NCBI GenBank assembly: GCA_023053545.1
Contig: JAKZAN010000206.1
Location: 1-64,000, forward strand
Length of the DNA: 64,000 nucleotides
From: Lepidurus packardi
Lineage: Eukaryota > Arthropoda > Branchiopoda > Notostraca > Triopsidae
Direction of reading: 5' to 3'
Positions 1-50,174 of this stretch are shown in pieces (position 1 is the stretch's first letter; every line of letters starts with the position of its first letter). Below the pieces are notes generated by a model. The model was given only the letters and a program-made list of their open reading frames with translations, was not told the origin of the DNA and ran no database searches. Both the position numbers and the translations under genes were made by a program.

Positions 1-230
1 CCCAACCCCAACCCCAACCCCAACCCCAACCCCAACCCCAACCCCAACCCCAACCCCAACCCCAACCCCAACCCCAACCCCAACCCCAACCCCAACCCCA
101 ACCCCAACCCCAACCCCAACCCCAACCCCAACCCCAACCCCAACCCCAACCCCAACCCCAACCCCAACCCCAACCCCAACCCCAACCCCCCCAACCCCAA
201 CCCCAACCCCAACCCCAACCCCAACCCCAA
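1..230. repeat. Left chromosome end: C4A2 telomere array
   Basis: About 38 tandem CCCCAA units run from the first base to 230, where unique sequence begins. The C-rich strand reads 5' to 3' at the left end, the correct polarity for a left telomere. One unit is irregular: a run of seven C at 186-192. This repeat is the Tetrahymena/Glaucoma type and differs from the C4A4 of spirotrichs. Confidence 0.97.
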
Positions 231-4000: not shown

Positions 4001-5292
4001 TCAATCCTCGCCAAACTGCTCCAGCTGTTCCGATTCTTACTGTTCTAGCTCTTCTTATTCCTCTAACTCGTCGTTTACCTCGCCCCAGTACCCTTTGTCC
4101 ACCGTGTTCTCCTCGTCCTCGTCCATGTAGCTCTTGAATGTTGCGTACAGGCCTGCATGACCTGTTTTCTTCGCAGCCTACTCTAAGTTAGACTTAGATA
4201 GCAGTGCATAGCTATTCAACTCCGAGAACGAAGTGTTGGAACCAAGCATTCTAAATAAGAATAAAGGAAATTTGATAAATTTAAGATAATAAAATACCTG
4301 AGGGTGGGGTAGGATGGAGGCGCACCGTATCTCTGCATGTTGACGATCCATGGGGGAGCCTGAAAATCTGTGACCCCTAGTGCCATTCTCAGTTCTTCGG
4401 ACAATACTCCCGGTTTGAATTGTTTTGCTTTTCCCTCCTCTTCTTTACCTTCGTAATAGGTATCACCAAATGTTGTCATTTTGCTCTTAGTCTGATACTT
4501 GAAGAAGGCATCATGTAGCACCGAATAATCGATATCGATCTTTCCCAGTCGAGGGTTCATGCGTTCTCTGAGCTTTTACCTTACCATTTTTTGACCATCC
4601 CGTTCGCTAAATGGGTCTCTGAGTTTGCTGATTCCCGTTGCCTAGATGAACTCCGGTAGCTTGAACATCGGCTTGAGAATACCCCTTTTGGTCTGAAGGA
4701 ATTTGGACTTCTGGTTCCAATGTCTGGGTACAGGGACTGTATTCTTCATAGTTTTTAGTTAGCAAAGGAAAAGGGGATCCATAGCTGTGATATCCCAAGC
4801 CTCCACTAGATCAGGTCTCTTGACGATAGCCTTGAGCTGTGCAACCTTGAGCCATCTCATCATCTTCTTCTTCTTTCGAGACAGCTTTAACTCTGCTTTG
4901 TGCTCCTCGCCGTTAGGCTGTTTGCCGTCTGGCTGTTCTTGGACATTTTTCTTACTCACATTGTTTTTCTCTTCTGCTTCCTCCTCTTACTAAGGCTTAT
5001 CAAAATACCTTTGTGCTTTGGCCTGCGCCTTCTCGAATACTTCTTTGAATTGCTCGTAATATCTTCCAGTCAGTATGTTCTGATTCTGTTCGACTATTTC
5101 AGGTTCCTCAGCAGCAGTCTGCTGTTCCTTTTCTTCTTGCTCACGTTTGTCTGCGAGCCTCCTTCGTATATCTTCTCGTTTGAACTAATTGAGCCTTCGC
5201 TCTTCCTTCTGGCGTTCTCTACGCTATTTTTCCTTGTGTTTTTTGTCTTCTTTGCGCTTTTCGATTTAGTCGGGTGTGGGTTGTTTGCCCAT
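4001..5292 (-). CDS. SF3B2: Splicing factor SF3b subunit 2 (SAP145/Cus1)
   Basis: Exons 5292-4298 and 4250-4001 (47-nt intron) give 414 residues. A charged coiled region fills the first 110 residues. The conserved core follows: an LSRKKKKMM-type start, a VKRPDLVEAWD block, VPVPRHW, KIDIDYSVLHDAFFK (DUF382), then PPWIVNMQRYGAPPSYP (PSP domain). SF3B2 is a U2 snRNP SF3b subunit that binds pre-mRNA near the branch point. The length resembles yeast Cus1 (about 436) more than human SF3B2 (about 895). The acidic tail rich in Glu and Gln is normal. The frame stays open upstream to an ATG at 5454, but that extension lacks family similarity, so I chose 5292. Confidence 0.93.
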
Positions 5293-5625
5293 TGGATTAG
5301 TATTGTGGTGCGAGGAGGGAGTAGTATCTGCCTGGTCCTACTATTTAGTTGTGTTAATGAATTATATGATTTGTTATAGTTTTTGTTAGCAGTACGATCT
5401 GGGATGATATAAAAATAGGAGCCTGCATCGTTCAGCATCCAAATGATTACCCATTATTTTATTAAATTTGATTTCCATTTGGTGATTGGATAATCTCGTT
5501 TATTTTGTTCTGATTCAGCTATTTTTCCTAAGTTTGTTTAAAATCATGATTAACCATGTTTTTCCTATCGATTTTAGGAGTTGATCCCAAAATTTAGAAT
5601 CATTCGTAAAAACCTCCAAGACATT
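5293..5625. other. Intergenic, SF3B2 upstream region
   Basis: No gene is seen apart from the possible in-frame N-terminal extension of SF3B2 up to 5454. The region is A+T-rich towards its right half. Confidence 0.4.
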
Positions 5626-6082: not shown

Positions 6083-6595
6083 ATGCAGTTAGAAGCAGCC
6101 TTCGAAGAAGCAGCCAAACTGGCAGGATCGGGTCTCGGACAAGTCGCATCCATCGATGTCTCCAGGAAACTAGGAGTCGGAATAGTAGCCATGGAAGGCT
6201 GTGTCCTTGAGTTCGAGGAAGTAGACATGCACTCGGGATTAGAGCATGGAGTGCCTATGCCCCAAAAATACCAAAAGGTGTCAATGGCTTTTACCAAATT
6301 CAGCGATACGGCGACGGGTACCTCGGGAGTCATTCATCTGAAACTCGACGACCAAAAACTGAGTATCATGTGGAGTCTTCCTTTTGACTACAATCTGTAT
6401 AGTAACTGGTACGATGTTGTGGAAGGCTACAAGAACTTTGATGATATCTACTACGAGAAGCCTGTAAAAGGAGGATAGAGCTTCGATGGGCTTGTGGGGA
6501 ACGTGAGAGTAAGAGCCTGGCTGGGTTCTGAAGGTCATACCTCTCTAATGGTGGCGTTAGGTAGGAACGTTCCACAGCTTGGTGGATCAGCTTGA
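6083..6595 (+). CDS. Actinoporin-like protein, copy 1
   Basis: A single exon of 170 residues, close to the 175-180 of sea-anemone actinoporins. The central block WSLPFDYNLYSNWYDV matches the family's most conserved stretch, the Pro and aromatic cluster that binds phosphocholine headgroups. Upstream are a glycine-rich turn and a RKLGVGI-type first strand. Downstream are a Gly-rich loop and C-terminal beta strands. No secretion signal is present, as also in many plant and fungal members. The family (actinoporins, bryoporins, fungal fruit-body lectins) forms membrane pores or binds glycans or lipids. The N-terminal helix is amphipathic in character. A second copy follows 222 bases downstream on the same strand. 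Pore formation in this organism is inference; a lectin or defence role is equally possible. Confidence 0.85.
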
Positions 6596-6817
6596 TTTTT
6601 TACATAAAGAGACTGGTCTTTTAGTTCTTGATGTTTAATTACTGACTTGTCGTTACTCAGACCTTGATCCTATTGAACAGTAGATCATCCATCCAACAAA
6701 GGAATAGTCCTTTATCCGGTATTATTGGGTTCTTTGTCTTCCTCGATATAATAATTTCGCTTTTTTTACATCAGCCTCGGAACACCAGGTTAATCATCAA
6801 TATAAACCATAGACAAC

Positions 6818-7300
6818 ATGCAAGTCGCAGCTGAAACTTCAAATCAACTCGCTATAGAAGCCCTCCATCGAATGTTTCCTCTAAACGTCAGTCGAAAGAT
6901 GGGCATAGCAATAGTTCCAGCAGAAGGGACCTCGATCATCCTGGAAGATATAATACTCTAATCCGGTACTGAGAACGATCGACCTGCTGTGGGTAAGCAC
7001 ACCCAACTGTCCTTTTCGTTCTGCAAACACCTTACAACTCCAACAGGAACAGCGGGCGTCCTCCATTTGATCTATGAGGAGATCCCATTGACTGTATTAT
7101 GGAGTGTACCCGAGAACAACCTATTGTACAGCAACTGGTATGATGTAGTGCTGGGACACAGGACCTTTGATGAGGTGTACAAAGGGAGTCCGATCAAAGG
7201 AGGACATAGTATGCACAAAATTCTAGACAAATTCTAGGTTTCAGGGAGAATGGGAAACGGTGGGTAGACGACTCTAGCGATTGCCATCGGGATATGCTGA
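6818..7300 (+). CDS. Actinoporin-like protein, copy 2
   Basis: A single exon of 160 residues from ATG 6818 to TGA 7298, with TAA at 6959 and further TAG codons read as Gln. It keeps WSVP and LLYSNWYDV but lacks the Asp-Tyr pair of copy 1 in the intervening loop. The first strand NVSRKMGIAIV aligns with that of copy 1, so they are tandem duplicates that have diverged strongly outside the core. The C-terminus is about ten residues shorter and lacks part of the last strands. No signal peptide is seen. The copies may have different lipid or glycan specificity, or one may act as a partner or antagonist of the other. That is inference. Confidence 0.8.
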
Positions 7301-7553: not shown

Positions 7554-10500
7554 ATGATCTAATAAGCACAGGACTTCACCACTGAGACCGAACTACTCTT
7601 TAGACAGTTCACCTTCTCCCCCAACCTCGAGAAGAAGGCTATCGACTCTCTCACCAAAGTCATCAAGGTCGCTCCCAAGGACTTCATCGCCCACCTGCTC
7701 GCACACCCTGAACAGATTCGAGTCATCAACACTTCTACCATCTCCACATATCTCAGAATCGTCTACCGAGCCATCCGAAAACACCAATAGCTCCACACCC
7801 TCTTCGGGCAGTTGGTCGTTCTCCTGGCAGGTAAGTACTTGACAGCCACCTACCAGCACTCCAATAAAAACCAAAACCAGACACTCCAGCACTTCGCTGG
7901 TTTCCTAAAAAATATCCACATGGCTGACCTCCACCCCAATAGTTCCAATGTCGAAATCCTCCTCTATCTTAACAGCCAGACATCCAAACAAAGATAACTT
8001 GCAACTGAGTTGGTCGCAGAAAAAATCAAGAACGAGATCGTAGTCGATAAAAAGAGTAGACAGCCTAAATTCATCAAAGCACAACAACTTTTGGGTGGGT
8101 TCATTGCAGAAAACTTCAAGCTGTTCCTCCCTGCCCTCGAGAGGCTGCTAGTTAGGAGCGAGGCGAACCTTGAAATCTGGAAAGAAGTACTCGATATTGT
8201 GCCAGCTGAACAAACATCTGGTAACTTTAATCAACACGCAGTCAACTCCATCAAACACATCAAAGACTATCTCATCCCCCAGAGTGCATTCACTTTGGAC
8301 ATCGTCAAAAATCTAACTCGTGGGATCAACTCCCGTGATGTTCTCCAGCAATGCGTAGACCTGATCGAGAATCTGATCAGCAGCAACCATGATGACAGAA
8401 AGCGACTCATTGCAATCCAGATGCTCGAGGGACCTATCTAAAGTGCCCTGAAAATTGACGACGAGTAGAAGACTCTTTCTAGGATTCTTGTGATCCTTAT
8501 CAAGTTATTCTTCAGACTGAACGAAGAGAACTTCCCTGTCTTTGCTGGGCTCCTTAACAAGGCACTCTCGCACAAGACTACGTCAAATAAAGATATCCTC
8601 GAAGCCTGTAAAACTGAAGTGAAGGGCGCCAGCAAATACGGGGTATTGTGTATCTGTGAAGTGCTCTCGAAACTCTATACTCCTTAAGATTTATCTAAAG
8701 AGAAAAGTCTTCAAGAGATTGTAAAAGAGTTTGAAAAGATTTACAAGAAAAGTGCAGAGAAAATAGTGCTCAATATGGAATCGTATTTGGGAACTTTGTT
8801 GTTGTTGACGACTCTTCAAACTGGCGTCGACACTTCTTCCATTTATGAAGATGGTGCGTATTTGAACCAGTTCAACTTCTTGCATGTTGCAGGTCCTATT
8901 AGAGATTTACTGACCAGAGTCATCATCAAGAGTCTCGAGCAACCTGATGTTGAATATCCTGAAGATATCAATCCTGTCTCCATGACTATCCTCATCGGTC
9001 TATGTGGTAGCAAGGCGCTCAAAGCCAGTGAGCAACTTGTAAATATGCTTCCTCAGTATCAACTAGCTTTGATTACTGATGGAGTTTACAGGTATTACTA
9101 TTTTGATGTGGCTCAGAGAATACCACTTCAAAGAGAAGCTATCCGTAAGCTCGTCGCCTATGTAGTAGATAATATCGATGCTGAAGTAGCTCTGACTGGA
9201 AGGGACTGGCGTCGACTTCTCACTGTAGCAAAAAATTTCAGCTTGCACTAAAGAGTTTTGAAGAGGTTTGAAAGTCGCCTTGAAGAATTAAAGGAGACTA
9301 TGACTGAAGAGTTCAGGCATGATTTGAAACAGGTTCTCCAGAAAGATTTCTGCCAGAGCAATCCTATAAGGCAGCAATTCCACAAAGACTTCCTTGAGAT
9401 CTGCTTCAAACAAAAGGTTTACGATCTCGAAGACACAGCATCTCTACTACTCAACACTGAGAACTATACTAGTATCAAGTGCCTTGAAGAATTCGAGGAG
9501 CAACTTAAGGAAGCTAGTGAGACTGAGGCGAAGAATCATAAATCCGAACTCGACCTCCTTTACAAAACATAACTCTTCAAAGAAGATAATAAATAAAGGG
9601 TGAAGAAAGCCAAGATAGATGCTTTCAATGCTAAGGACATTAGGATTATGGACGAGCATGAAGTCAAAATCCAGAGACTCCACAACCACCTTCTGAACAT
9701 GGCTGAATACTTCGGAGCATTCGTGCAGGTAGTTGGTTTGGCCGATTAGGCTGCTGAGGCTGAGTTTTGCGACGCTCATTTCTCAGAAATGCTGAAGTGC
9801 ATGAAATATCCCGAACTGCGCCATTACCTTTACGAGTATGTGAGATACCTTTTTATGAGAAAGTCTAGGTTCTACAAATATTCTTCCTTCCTCGCAGAGT
9901 TGTTTGTCGGAGTCGGCAGCGAACAAATCCCTAGAGACAGAATTCTGGACAAGTTCTACACATTCGAAGCTGATCTTCTGGGCTTCACGTTCAGCGAGCT
10001 ACCTCTCCATGTTATCAACATGTTCGAACTGGTTAACTCCTTCCTGTTATCTAACCTTGAGTTTGATGTCAATCTCAAAATCTATGCTGTTAAATTTTAC
10101 CTGAAGCTGACTGAGGACGTGAGATGTCGGGATATCCTCAAAAAGATCTATCCTTATGTCATCAACAATATCAACCTTCTCTCCAACCATCAAGAAACTA
10201 GAGACCTTCTGGATAGATTAATGAATGTTGTCGATCCTACCAGCTTCCATCTCATTCTGGACGATTTGCTTAACTATTTGACTTCTTCCAAGAGAGCTGT
10301 TCTTTCTAGCATCGCTTTGGTTGCCAACCCTGACTTCAAACTCAGTTTTGAAGATTATGTCAAGCTTCGAATTTTATCAGTCGAATCTGATGCTCAGGTT
10401 TCTACCCACGCAAACAAAATACTTGGGCTATATAAACTTGAGATGGATGTAGAGCAGATCAGCAAGTTCGACATGAAGAGATTCGTGGAAAGGCATAGTA

Positions 10501-13500
10501 AGGACACTACTGACAGACTCAGTCAATTTGCCAAGGAAAGCTTCACAACCCATCCTAGCATCACTTCTGCTCTTTTCACCAAATCAATCAAAACTGCAGA
10601 ACAGCTTTACAGCGAAGGGTTCGACCAGGAAGGTCTGGAGTTCTTCCCTATTTTCCTTACTGTCAATATCGAGTTCATTAAGACTGAATTCTTCGACAAT
10701 ATCTTCAAAACCCTGATTACTCAGTACACTGCAGATGAATCCTTGGTAACACTCAACAAGGCCTCTTTGCAGACTGGCATCGATATAATTAAGCGATATG
10801 GAACCCAGCACAGCGAGGTTTTACTTAAGGTTCTAGAAAGCTATTTGAAACAGAACAAAGGTGTTGCCAACGTAGTTTATCTTGGTGTGCTTGCTCCTTA
10901 CCTCAAAGACAACCGTAACCTTGAGATGATTGAGAAAAGAATTACAAGTCTATTCGAGTCTGATAATGAAAACCAACAAAAAGCAATCAGCAAGTGCATG
11001 GTCGAACTCATGTCTTTCTTCAAACAACCTAAACAACTTGTCAAAACTCTGTACGACAAGCTTTCTACTCTAGACGGCCATGTTCAAGTGGGACAAGCTC
11101 ATCTTGTTGCAGGTCTTCTAAGTGGAATCGGAACTCAGGAAATGAGTAAATACTTGAGTACCCTTTTGGAAAACTACGAAAACATAAAGGCTGTGAATGA
11201 GAAGAAGGCCAGACTACTTCTCATTAACGCTCTGTTGAACAATTTCGGAAGAGTCTTGGAACCCAAAATCGTCTCCATTATGAAGATTATTATCTTCTTC
11301 ATGAGTGATAATAATGAGCCTGTTCGCGATCTCTCCCGTAAAGTCGCACAGGGTATCATGAACAAACTCAGTGCCTTCGGAGTTAAACAGCTTTTACCTG
11401 AATTGCTAAATGGGCTGGAGAAGGAAGAAAATTGGAGAGGAAAGGTAACTTACATCTGGGCTCTTGGTAACATGGCACACTGTGCTCCCAAGCAACTTCA
11501 AACTTGTCTGCCTAAGATTGTTCCCAAACTCTCTGCTTGCTTGAGTGACACTCATCCTAAGATCAGAGAAAACGCTACGGAGTCTCTGAAGGTTATCGGA
11601 GAAACTATCAAGAACCCTGAAATCTTCGATAGCATGGATATCCTTATCAGTGCCCTTTCTGACCCTTTCACAAATTCCAAGAGAGCATTGTAAGTCCTAC
11701 TTAAGACTAAGTTTAGTCACTATATTGATCCTCCTGCATTGTCCGTTATCGTCCCCATTATTAACTATGCATTGAGGGGACGAGAGTCTGAACTTAAACT
11801 CTACGCCTCTCAGGTAATGGGAAGCATCTGTATCCTTATCCAGAATCCCGAAGACCTTCTCCCATACATTGATTTCTTGAAACAAGGTCTGAAAGTGACT
11901 GCTTGCGATCCGCTTGCTGAGATCCGTAATGTGGCTACCAAGTCTCTGGGGAGGATCTCAGCCAGAATAGGTATTGCAAATACTGAAAAATATTTGGGAT
12001 TCGTAAAAGAAATTCTGGATTCTGAGTCCTCTAACTCGATTGAGCGCCAAGGAGCAGCCCAGGGATTGTCTGAGATTATTTGCAGCCACGGCTTCGATTA
12101 CTTCGAAGAGTCCCTGACTCAGATTTACCAAAGACTGAAAGCCGCAAAGCAATGTCAGAAGGAAGGATACATCGCCATCTTCATTTTCGTACCTGAAATC
12201 ATGAAGTCTGACTTCGAACCTTTCATCAATGAGCTCACCGAAAATATGACCACGTTCGTCTCCGACCAGGAGGAATCGATTAGAAACAGCAGTTTGCAAG
12301 TTCAGAAGATCCTGATCAACAACTTTGGTCTGAGTCATACTTCTGTCTTGTTGGAACCTCTATGTGATAGTCTTTTCGAGGAGAGCTGGCGAAAGAGAAA
12401 TGGTGCACTCATTCTGATCGGTGAAATGCTTAACGTACTCAAGAACTATCTTTACGAAAATTCGAACGAGGAGAAGGAGGCCTATTACTATCAGGCAGTC
12501 ATGGGTGTTTACATCTTGAAAGACGATGAAGTTGAAATGCCCAGAGTGACTGCTTCCCAAGTATGGAATGCCTATATCGATAATACCCCCAAGACTCTTA
12601 AAATTGGTATGAGTAAACTCGTTACTATGTGGGTCAAGGGAATAAAACAATCTGCTTGCGATGTGGCCCATAGAAATATCACCGCCTTCGCTATCAAGTA
12701 TGGAGAAAGCTATTTCACTGAGATTATCGCCAACTTCTAGTACGTTCTAGGCTCAGAAGATCCTTCTCTCAAGAGTGGTGTGTATGATGTTTTCTGTGAG
12801 TTCCTGAAGAGACTTACTCAGCAGTTCCTAAGCAAACTTACTGACAGTCTGAGAGGAATCTTTGAATACGGTTTTTACTCATCCATCGAAGAAGTCAGAC
12901 ACAGTTTGGTGAAGGCACTCGCTATTTATGTCGAAAAAATGCACGAGACCTCTTATCTATAAGAAAAGCTCTATCCAAGGTTGGAGCAAGTTGAGCAAAT
13001 GAAAGAAGAGTCTGAAGACTTTACCAACTTGCTGCACTTCTTTGGAGATCTCTGCTCAACCTCGTCAAGACACATCATTGAGTCCTTGGTCAAGAAACTG
13101 ATGTAAAAACCTATGACCGAGTTCAAAATTGAAGTCCTGACCAACAATGCTGCTAAATTGGCTAACAGTCTATACAGTTACTTTGAGAAGAGACCGGCCC
13201 TTGAAATCATTAAGGAAGAGATTGTCTTAGAAATTGAAGCACAAAAACAGGACGACACGAGACTGAAATCCCTAGTTTACTGCTTTAATGAGCTTTCAAT
13301 CAATCTGAGCAGCAAGCATCGCGCCAAGCTTGTCGAAAATCTCTCTTCAGAAATAAGTAACTATTCAAGACTCAGCAAAAAAGAACTCGTGGGTGTCAAG
13401 TTTAAGCTCCTTGAAACTGATCTCCAATTGTTAGTGTTTTTCCTGGGCAATACCCCTGCTGAGGAGACCGGAAATTTAGAAGAACTGATTAAAGAAATCA

Positions 13501-14609
13501 CTCCTCTAGCTTTTATGGACAAGGGGACACTCATGGAACACGTTAACCAAATCATGTCCACACTATTCGCCTCGCCTGACAAATCCCTCAGGATTAACTA
13601 CTTTAAGCAATTTGGAGTTTGCCTCTAAAACAACCTTTCCTAGAACACAAACGAGGAGTTTGTGCCTATATGGCGTTCACCCGAAAACGCAAAGCTTTAC
13701 GCTACTATCTTCATCAATACCCTGGTCTACGGTGAATTGGAACTCTTCGACGAAGCATTATCAGTTCTTAACCTATTCATGAAGTACACTCCTCTGTCAA
13801 ATATCCAAGAAAACGTTCAGCCCATTGCCGGAGCTATCCTTCGTATTTCCAACTACAGACTCTCCCAGAAACAGAAGGTTCGCATCCAAGAGTTTATCCA
13901 GGACCTGTTCAACTCCAAACATACTATCCAGAACTTCCAGTTCCAACTGCTCTCTACTATCGTGAGATTTGCTGAGCTCTCCAAAGATCTCGAGCATATT
14001 GACCTCGCTAGTAAGAACTTGGTGCTTCTCATGCAAAGCTCTAACAGAAGAAATGAGCTGTTGCTGGAGTTCGTGAGCAGGACAAAGAAATCCATGGCGA
14101 ACAGCAGCAGCCTGCCTTTGTGTCTGTACCACACCATCAAAAGAGTTGTAACCCTCCCCAACCTGCTGTTAAATGCTACCTATGAAAAGATCCAGTCCGA
14201 ACTCGGTTCGATTCTCAGTGATCCAAAAGAACTCTCCAGTTCATCTTCTGTCAAGAACCTTTACTACTTGTCTAAGACGAGTGCCAGGATCGCTGCTATT
14301 GCTTTGAAGACACCATTCAGTAAGTATCAGGACATTATGCACGGCCCGGCCCCCACCTATTCGCAGATGTTGCAATACCTTCACTACAGCTACTACGGCA
14401 ACCAGACCCCAACGGAGCACGAGAAGATCGCAATATTCCTTAAGGAGTCATCGCAAGAGAAAGTGCTAAGACTGCTGAAATCGCTGAAGCTAATAAACAA
14501 GAAGAACCCAGGTTTCCGCAACTTATATTCTACGGAGAAAGTAGAGAAGATGGTCAGCGAGAACATCATCGGATTCGAGGACATCGATGATATGCTTAAA
14601 AGCTTGTGA
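7554..14609 (+). CDS. GCN1: GCN1, activator of the GCN2 kinase
   Basis: One uninterrupted frame of 2351 residues with dozens of TAA/TAG codons and no TGA before 14607. It is built of HEAT repeats throughout. The region of residues 1200-1520 carries the eEF3-like block that identifies GCN1: phrases such as GVKQLLPELLNGLE, WALGNMAHCAPKQL, LPKIVPKLSACLSDTHPKI and IKNPEIFDSMDILISALSDP. GCN1 binds stalled or collided ribosomes and passes the signal to GCN2, raising eIF2-alpha phosphorylation under amino-acid starvation. The usual length is about 2670, so this one is slightly short, mainly in the N-terminal half. The absence of introns in 7 kb contrasts with most neighbouring genes. Confidence 0.95.
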
Positions 14610-48547: not shown

Positions 48548-48618
48548 TCAAGGTATATGCCTATCCTCCTGTGCTTCATGGTCGATCACTTCCAATATCT
48601 GTTCCATCTGGGGTCTAC
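48548..48618 (-). pseudogene. Truncated 3' end of the 48969-50174 gene family
   Basis: On the minus strand the last ~20 codons read KQMEQILEVIDHEAQ-like residues, then TGA. A 36-base stretch (48574-48609) differs from 48977-49012 by one base. The rest of the gene is missing: the copy stops about ten bases before the TTGGGG array. So a second gene copy was cut at or beside the telomere-type repeat. The intact relative is 0.4 kb to the right, same strand. Confidence 0.8.
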
Positions 48619-48758
48619 TTGGGGTTGGGGTTGGGGTTGGGGTTGGGGTTCTGGGGTTGGGGTTGGATGGGGTTGGGGTTGGGGTTGGGGTTGGGGTTGG
48701 GGTTGGGGTTGGGGTTGGGGTTGGGGTTGGGGTTGGGGTTGGGGTTGGGGTTGGGGTT
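48619..48758. repeat. Interstitial TTGGGG (G4T2) telomere-type array
   Basis: About 23 TTGGGG units span 140 bases, G-rich on the plus strand, the orientation of a right chromosome end. Two irregular units occur near its left part (TTCTGGGG and TTGGATGGGG). Unique sequence follows on both sides, without a facing C4A2 block. The minus strand encodes a Pro-Asn run that is not a gene. Confidence 0.97.
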
Positions 48759-48968: not shown

Positions 48969-50174
48969 TCATTGTTCTTCATGGTCGATCACTTCCAATA
49001 CCTGTTCCATCTATTTAGTCCCCAATTCGAACTGCATAGTCTTCTTCAGCAGGTGCGCCAGATAATGCATCTTCTTATACGCGAATTTTGGCGTAAATGT
49101 AATAACTTTGATACTACTATCGCCCAAATCGCTGATAACCACGATGAGTACCTAGTTCCTCAATTCCTGAGCTGAAATGAGTGGATTGGTAACTGAATGT
49201 GAATGCGACTGATACTCCATGGTGCTCACTGTTTGTGTATCCAAGATGTTTAAAGTAACTCTCGAACTGTAGAGCTGGGTATAATTGATCACATTGACGA
49301 CGTATCTTCCAGTATTCAAGAAATATTGAGATTTTTGTCTAGCTTAGCAATCTCCCCAATCGTATAAGCGAACACTCTCGAGTTTAGATTCCTCTTTTTC
49401 TATTGTTATCAAAAAAGGTAAAGATTATTTTAGACAGGTCACAAGGTATTTTCCCTAATTGATTCTAGCGACGTGTTGAGGAAACTGGGAGTGTGTGTAG
49501 GGTAACTCGTAGCATAGGTTGGATGTCCCATCGACGACGTTGATCTGGATACCACCAAATAAGTAAGAATACCAGCAAATAGCGCCTCGTTGATCCATTT
49601 GATTTATGGATAGATTCTCATGATCTGTTCTGGCGACTTGATTTTGAGGCATATTATAGTACACCTTGAATCTCTTATTCCGAAAGCTGAGTCCATATAT
49701 TTCTGGATTTTTTTTGTCGAAATGCTTCTCTAAGATGGTACCAGTCTCGATGAACGTCTTCACGACATTTTTGTTTTTGAACTCATGAATGTGTCCGTGG
49801 TCATGGTTGGCATTGTCGCAGGTATGGTTGAGATCGTATGCGTAGACTCTGTAGTCCTAAGCTTTCTGCAGGTAGAAGTGCGTGCCACTGATGAACCCAC
49901 CTGATGCATGGCTGGCATACTCATTCTACACTTTATGCGAGAAAACTACTCTGTTAGCAAGTAGTTCTACGACTTATATATTGCTATCTTTCATCCTGAG
50001 CACTAGAATTTGAAGACTGGCTGTCTTGGGGCAGATGAAAGTATCCTTAATTTAGATTTGCCTATCCCATTGGAAGAGCTAGGCAGTGACGTCATATTTC
50101 TTTTGGGAAGCCTCGATACGAGGTAGTTATTCGGCATGGTAGAGCGTAGGAGTTGGGACTCGCGAACGACCCAT
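48969..50174 (-). CDS. Unknown beta-rich protein, duplicated family
   Basis: A single exon of 401 residues from ATG 50174 to TGA 48969, with over ten Gln-type stops. It appears built of three or four beta sandwiches. Two repeats end in a similar edge (RINQGKYLVTCLKQ and LNTGRYVVNVINYTQ), loosely like the C2-like domain III of calpains, but no protease core is present. A His/Asp-rich loop (NHDHGHIHEF) could bind metal. The last helix (KKMHYLAHLLKKTMQ) is kept in two broken copies nearby (48548 and 50430). The family is not recognised. A calpain relation is only a weak suggestion. Confidence 0.78.

Follow-up and report, generated by a model that had tools for sequence, protein, structure and literature searches.

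A tandem pair of actinoporin-family genes on a ciliate chromosome in the Lepidurus packardi assembly

We analysed a window of 64,000 nucleotides, positions 1 to 64,000 of contig JAKZAN010000206.1 in the Lepidurus packardi assembly GCA_023053545.1. Two adjacent genes near its left end, gene A and gene B, are the subject of this report. A preliminary description, made from the sequence alone, had reported two actinoporin-like genes of 170 and 160 residues, 222 bases apart, each carrying a YSNWYDV core next to a WSxP motif, and all of this was borne out. The core is preceded by WSLP in A and by WSVP in B. An ungapped alignment of A and B covers 158 residues with 38% identity, and it agrees with the earlier remark that the two copies diverge in the loop before the core (PFDYNLYS in A, PENNLLYS in B) and at the C-terminus. 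The results below show that both proteins truly belong to the actinoporin family and that their genes form a tandem pair in a ciliate genome.

Both proteins match the Pfam family PF06369 (sea anemone cytotoxic protein), with E-values of 2.8e-11 for A and 5.2e-6 for B. Against a cut-off of 25 bits, A scored 43.8 whether TAA and TAG (together TAR) were translated as Gln or as Glu, and B passed narrowly with 26.7 (Gln) or 25.9 (Glu). Single-sequence searches recovered actinoporins in the PDB at E-values of 9e-11 (A) and 1e-5 (B). With E-values up to 10, each protein had 17 distinct PDB matches, all of them bryoporin, sea-anemone actinoporins, HALT-1 or chains named Actinoporin or Fav. A profile of the six relatives described below found the same kinds of protein at E-values from 3e-16 to 1e-10, and one extra weak match, an insecticidal crystal protein (E = 0.74). 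Judged from the Pfam and PDB matches, chance is excluded as the source of the family resemblance. The aegerolysin family PF06355 did not reach its cut-off of 22 bits for A (14.5, or 14.2), and none was listed for B; NCBIfam gave no match for A or B. No match to A or B was found in phage records, and none of the stretches that fitted the search pattern was confirmed in viral contigs (54 stretches) or in contigs of prokaryote genomes (22 stretches).

The predicted fold of both proteins is a beta-sandwich with two flanking helices, one of which is an N-terminal helix that aligns with the N-terminal helix of FraC and EqtII. Protein A was modelled five times from an input alignment of six sequences, and one model was poor (mean predicted local distance difference test score, pLDDT, of 72.2). 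The claim of actinoporin kinship is supported by PF06369, by the PDB sequence matches and by the predicted fold.

We searched 5.8 billion proteins for relatives. A single-sequence search returned one, P0001, and a profile search added P0002, P0003 and P0004, which come from JGI contigs of 1.8–2.2 kb, together with a mussel protein at E = 0.055. When the mussel protein was included in the profile, a third search gave 18 rows with E-values no higher than 1, the majority from molluscs. The listing assigns a single contig of 2186 bases to P0002 and likewise to P0003, which makes a second tandem pair probable. In both pairs one member has a YY motif and the other has YKGSP. A tree was built from 17 rows, namely A and B (TAR as Gln) and 15 out of 20 protein hits; left out were P0006, which has an internal duplication, P0011, P0012, P0015 and P0020, as well as plant, fungal and cnidarian members. 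A, B and P0001–P0004 formed one group (100/100) that excludes the remaining 11 rows, and P0002 joined P0003 (100/99) inside this ciliate-type group. Apart from the root split as printed, only two of the 14 inner branches were highly supported by both measures. At 11 sites the pattern united A with B and P0002 with P0003, and the two alternative groupings had 3 sites each. These site patterns favour separate duplications for A/B and P0002/P0003; they do not support an orthologous ancient pair.

The assembly is a mixture of 344 contigs and 108.6 Mb. Its contigs C1–C6 (10.7–14 Mb each) are animal chromosomes, because the listed places of 101 homeodomain matches all lie on them except one (C97); eight of these places are clustered on C1 at 1.56–1.84 Mb, within 0.28 Mb. 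HSP70 genes occur in several pieces on C2, C4 and C5. Contig C344 has a GC content of 0.61 and an open stretch of 1,837 codons (standard code) in its first 6 kb, and C333 and C43 carry genes that we judged to be of bacterial look. CCCCAA arrays are present on C73, C74, C150 and C195, the last being the contig of the window, which starts with such an array. Conserved genes with in-frame TAR codons were found on C74, C172 and C337; the latter two were counted as ciliate on the strength of these codons. Given this mixture, the CCCCAA arrays and the TAR-bearing conserved genes, the window is ciliate DNA that was sequenced along with the animal, from an epibiont, food or another associate. The assignment to a ciliate chromosome in the preliminary description agrees with this. 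Its view that the genes are native and not contamination also agrees with the in-frame TAG and TAA codons, the neighbouring SF3B2 and GCN1 genes on the same chromosome, and the G+C content at third codon positions (0.50 in A, 0.49 in B and 0.51–0.56 in four other genes). No further match to A, B or P0002 was found elsewhere in the assembly. The ciliate genome present there is probably partial, so two actinoporin genes are a lower bound.

The in-frame TAR codons had been described as Gln-type, and this part was not borne out. The frames of A, B, GCN1, tubulin-tyrosine ligase and CDT1 all end at TGA. RPC2 was compared with two PDB chains, and CCT8, BiP and SF3B2 with one each. The 10 TAR sites scored in these four genes faced 15 residues: Glu six times, Asp, Gln and Lys twice each, and Thr, His and Ser. 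In the same alignments, CAA/CAG met Gln in 31 of 47 cases, and 66 of 116 GAA/GAG codons met Glu. Summed over the sites, the ln likelihood ratio favours Glu over Gln by +9.9. This sum retains codon 33 of RPC2, which opposes Glu (−2.1) with Gln in both partners, and codon 301 of SF3B2, which leans slightly to Gln (−0.3). It does not include ten more TAR sites in SF3B2 outside the aligned block, three in the Pol I-like L042, those in L014, and the TAR codons of L007 and L039, which were placed in introns by eye. Six TAR sites were located in the GCN1 fragment, of which site 631 faces Asp by eye. On this evidence, from C74, C172, C337 and positions 4351–5478 of the window, TAA and TAG behave as glutamate and TGA as stop in this ciliate, as in the peritrich nuclear code (NCBI table 30). 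The ciliate is thus probably a peritrich, and translating it with table 6 is probably wrong, a correction that matters to anyone translating its genes. The reference list of PMC4967479 includes a 2003 paper on UAA as glutamate. The mitochondrial-type HSP70 gene on C163 (L007) contains a very short intron, some 35 bases long, whose terminal TAG is easily taken for an in-frame TAG codon.

Positions of the lipid-binding site were mapped through the alignments of the six-relative profile to PDB actinoporins, and the roles of R31, S105, P107, Y113, N115, W116, Y133, Y137 and Y138 are those of the actinoporin literature. R31, Ser105 and Pro107 of the WSxP motif, Y113, N115, W116 and Y137 are kept in both proteins. 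Over S105, P107, Y113, W116, Y133, Y137 and Y138, A reads S, P, Y, W, F, Y, Y and B reads S, P, Y, W, F, Y, K. All six relatives carry Arg at the R31 position. In place of the RGD motif, A, B, P0002 and P0003 have KGG. The loop after the core is seven residues shorter than that of FraC, as counted on the profile alignment. The predicted N-terminal helix spans residues 2–19 in A and 2–17 in B. Because TGA is the sole stop, the frames stay open upstream of the ATG for 166 codons in A, 47 in B and 154 in GCN1, so homology fixes the start codon better. By this measure B, P0001 and P0004 begin in one column and A begins two residues earlier, and each of the four begins directly with the helix. With this partly conserved site and the helix amphipathicity given below, head-group binding is likely; pore formation is a plausible activity of A but a less plausible one of B.

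These results suggest a mechanism. A soluble monomer would recognise a phospho-headgroup lipid through the conserved Ser/Pro/Tyr/Trp site, and the target would most likely be a sphingolipid, for instance sphingomyelin or ceramide phosphoethanolamine. After head-group binding the proteins would oligomerise, and the N-terminal helix would detach and insert to form a small oligomeric pore. These would be the likely steps if the model of bryoporin applies; bryoporin forms octameric pores and has sphingomyelin and ceramide phosphoethanolamine as lipid ligands (PMC9526159). Ceramide phosphoethanolamine is reported from protozoa (PMC9174665). Since no leader was seen, storage in the cytosol is probable, which would keep the proteins away from the lipid of the outer and lumenal leaflets. 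From the cytosol, a protein could act on an outer-leaflet lipid only after a breach or its own release, a situation that suits defence or damage sensing; the pair may act when a membrane is breached or when cells are eaten. As neither protein has an obvious secretion signal, a part in lipid binding or defence within the cell seems likelier than one as venom. The grounds in hand are the family, the predicted fold, the native genome, the partial conservation of the binding site and the start at the helix. We give a probability of about 0.55 to the whole of this interpretation, a leaderless actinoporin pair with a cytosolic store and sphingolipid-targeted pores used in defence. Among its parts, lipid binding is rather probable, pore formation has an even chance for A and a poorer one for B, and defensive use falls slightly short of even odds.

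Several observations weigh against this interpretation. The binding site is incomplete, as both proteins have Leu at W112, Tyr at W117 and Phe at Y133, and Y138, which is Tyr in A, is Lys in B. The hydrophobic moment of the helix is modest in A (0.35, reached by 2.5% of 5000 shuffles) and at chance in B (0.21, reached by 36.7%), which leaves pore formation unproved, particularly in B. The two proteins are acidic (isoelectric points of 5.0 for A and 6.4 for B, TAR as Gln). Model confidence is lowest in the loops of most interest: mean pLDDT is 74 in A and 84 in B over residues 101–110, which hold the core, and 74 and 71 over residues 71–80. The lack of a visible leader or propeptide is judged from the start positions, with no leader predictor, and a further exon upstream is possible. 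All four matches to the sphingomyelin-synthase domain PF14360 lie on C4 and C5, which are animal chromosomes; this is weak evidence because the ciliate genome is partial.

Other explanations were weighed on the same evidence. A and B could be toxins, held in extrusomes or secreted against prey or competitors. Their fold is that of a pore former, and anemone actinoporins are components of venom (PMC5198562). However, no leader is visible, the relatives P0001 and P0004 have the same start position, and this absence of a leader, with the cytosolic store that it suggests, speaks against an extruded toxin and makes such a use improbable. Peritrichs filter-feed on bacteria, which also counts against a toxin if the host is a peritrich. 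The word actinoporin is absent from the one paper on ciliate predation that was searched (PMC13096750). The preliminary interpretation thus stands for actinoporin kinship and native genes, but its glutamine code falls and its predation reading is disfavoured for want of a visible leader. It would also be conceivable, though on balance unlikely, that the proteins are pore-less lipid sensors, which bind sphingolipid head groups exposed by damaged food vacuoles or parasites and recruit repair or autophagy, with the helix as a soluble cap. The Arg at R31 in every relative and the alignment of the helix with those of FraC and EqtII argue against this.

A two-component system, in which A with its full tyrosine pair and the changed B form mixed oligomers, would account for the split into YY and YKGSP members in both pairs. 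But the site patterns speak for duplications that took place independently, few residues carry the shared split, and the placing of P0002 and P0003 on one contig is taken from the listed 2186 bases, so we hold this system to be quite improbable. Contamination or misassembly, by which A and B would stem from the animal or from what it ate and have become attached to ciliate sequence, is suggested by the mixed assembly; it is very improbable in view of the TAR codons and TGA stops of both genes, their matching third-position composition, the conserved TAR-bearing genes on the same contig and the lack of further matches in the assembly. A more speculative and improbable possibility is that peritrichs carry a leaderless two-gene intracellular guard, in which A, with its nearly full lipid site, and the changed B would form mixed pores on exposed sphingolipids of foreign or damaged membranes. 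Its targets would be ingested prey, parasites and ruptured vacuoles opened to the cytosol. If so, a fold known from venoms would give a single-celled organism a form of cell-autonomous immunity.

With the ciliate proteins, an established family gains a new branch. In fold alignments, A and B share 25–26% identity with bryoporin of the moss Physcomitrium patens (PDB 7PUD), which likewise lacks RGD; compared with it, they have a shorter loop from the core to the tyrosine helix and Tyr at W117. Identity to the sea-anemone actinoporins (EqtII, FraC, FraE and sticholysins) is 24–26%. From these, A and B differ by their acidity, by having no leader or propeptide seen, by the changes at W112, W117 and Y133 and by KGG for RGD. 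The mollusc conoporins, coluporins and mytiporins (P0005–P0012, P0014–P0017 and P0020) resemble A and B in having TATGT and WSxP or WAxP..SNW in those seen and PF06369 in most rows. Unlike A and B, they are mostly 207–268 residues long, excluding proteins marked partial or very short, and form their own clade (100/100); P0005, P0016 and P0017 have a hydrophobic stretch at the start. Aegerolysins and fungal fruit-body lectins are structural cousins with much lower Z scores, and their alignments start past the N-terminal helix.

The sources consulted describe the fold from animals, moss, a lycophyte and glomeromycete fungi (PMC8778704, PMC9526159, PMC11291939), name sponge, cnidarian, mollusc, fish and glomeromycete members (PMC8778704) and propose a transfer from a lycophyte to Rhizophagus (PMC11291939). 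No ciliate member was met in the literature searched, where subscription papers were mostly outside the scope and absence in print is not established. The native ciliate branch and its metagenome relatives extend the fold to a distant eukaryotic group, which implies either that the family is older than thought or that it has moved between kingdoms more often. A form with no visible leader in a single-celled organism also lets one ask what pore formers do outside venoms.

Coordinates of the two genes and neighbouring features are listed in Table 1. The part of GCN1 at 9801–14606 matches PDB GCN1 7nrc (E = 2.3e-45) and a chain of 2898 residues, 8i9x_LR (E = 1.5e-86), whose record label is L19. 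CDT1, Dopey and tubulin-tyrosine ligase are also encoded on this chromosome.

Table 1. Features at the left end of the window.
Feature	Position	Strand	Remarks
CCCCAA telomere array, left chromosome end	1–230		Tandem Repeats Finder score 439
Frame with conserved part of SF3B2, upstream neighbour	4351–5478	−	PDB 5z56 SF3B2, E = 4e-61; conserved part only, with true start and introns outside this call
Gene A, actinoporin-like, 170 residues	codons 6083–6592; stop TGA 6593–6595	+	one in-frame TAG (codon 132)
Spacer between genes A and B, 222 bases	6596–6817
Gene B, actinoporin-like paralogue, 160 residues	codons 6818–7297; stop TGA 7298–7300	+	in-frame TAA (codon 48) and TAG (codons 140 and 150)
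GCN1, downstream neighbour	7554–14609	+	start codon picked by context

The window of 64,000 nucleotides contains no tRNA gene by ARAGORN and no Rfam match at the gathering score. Interstitial telomere-like TTGGGG arrays occur at 48619–48758 of the window and at 95068–95271 of contig C74. The former array is preceded by a stretch of 36 bases (48574–48609), which recurs with one change at 48977–49012.
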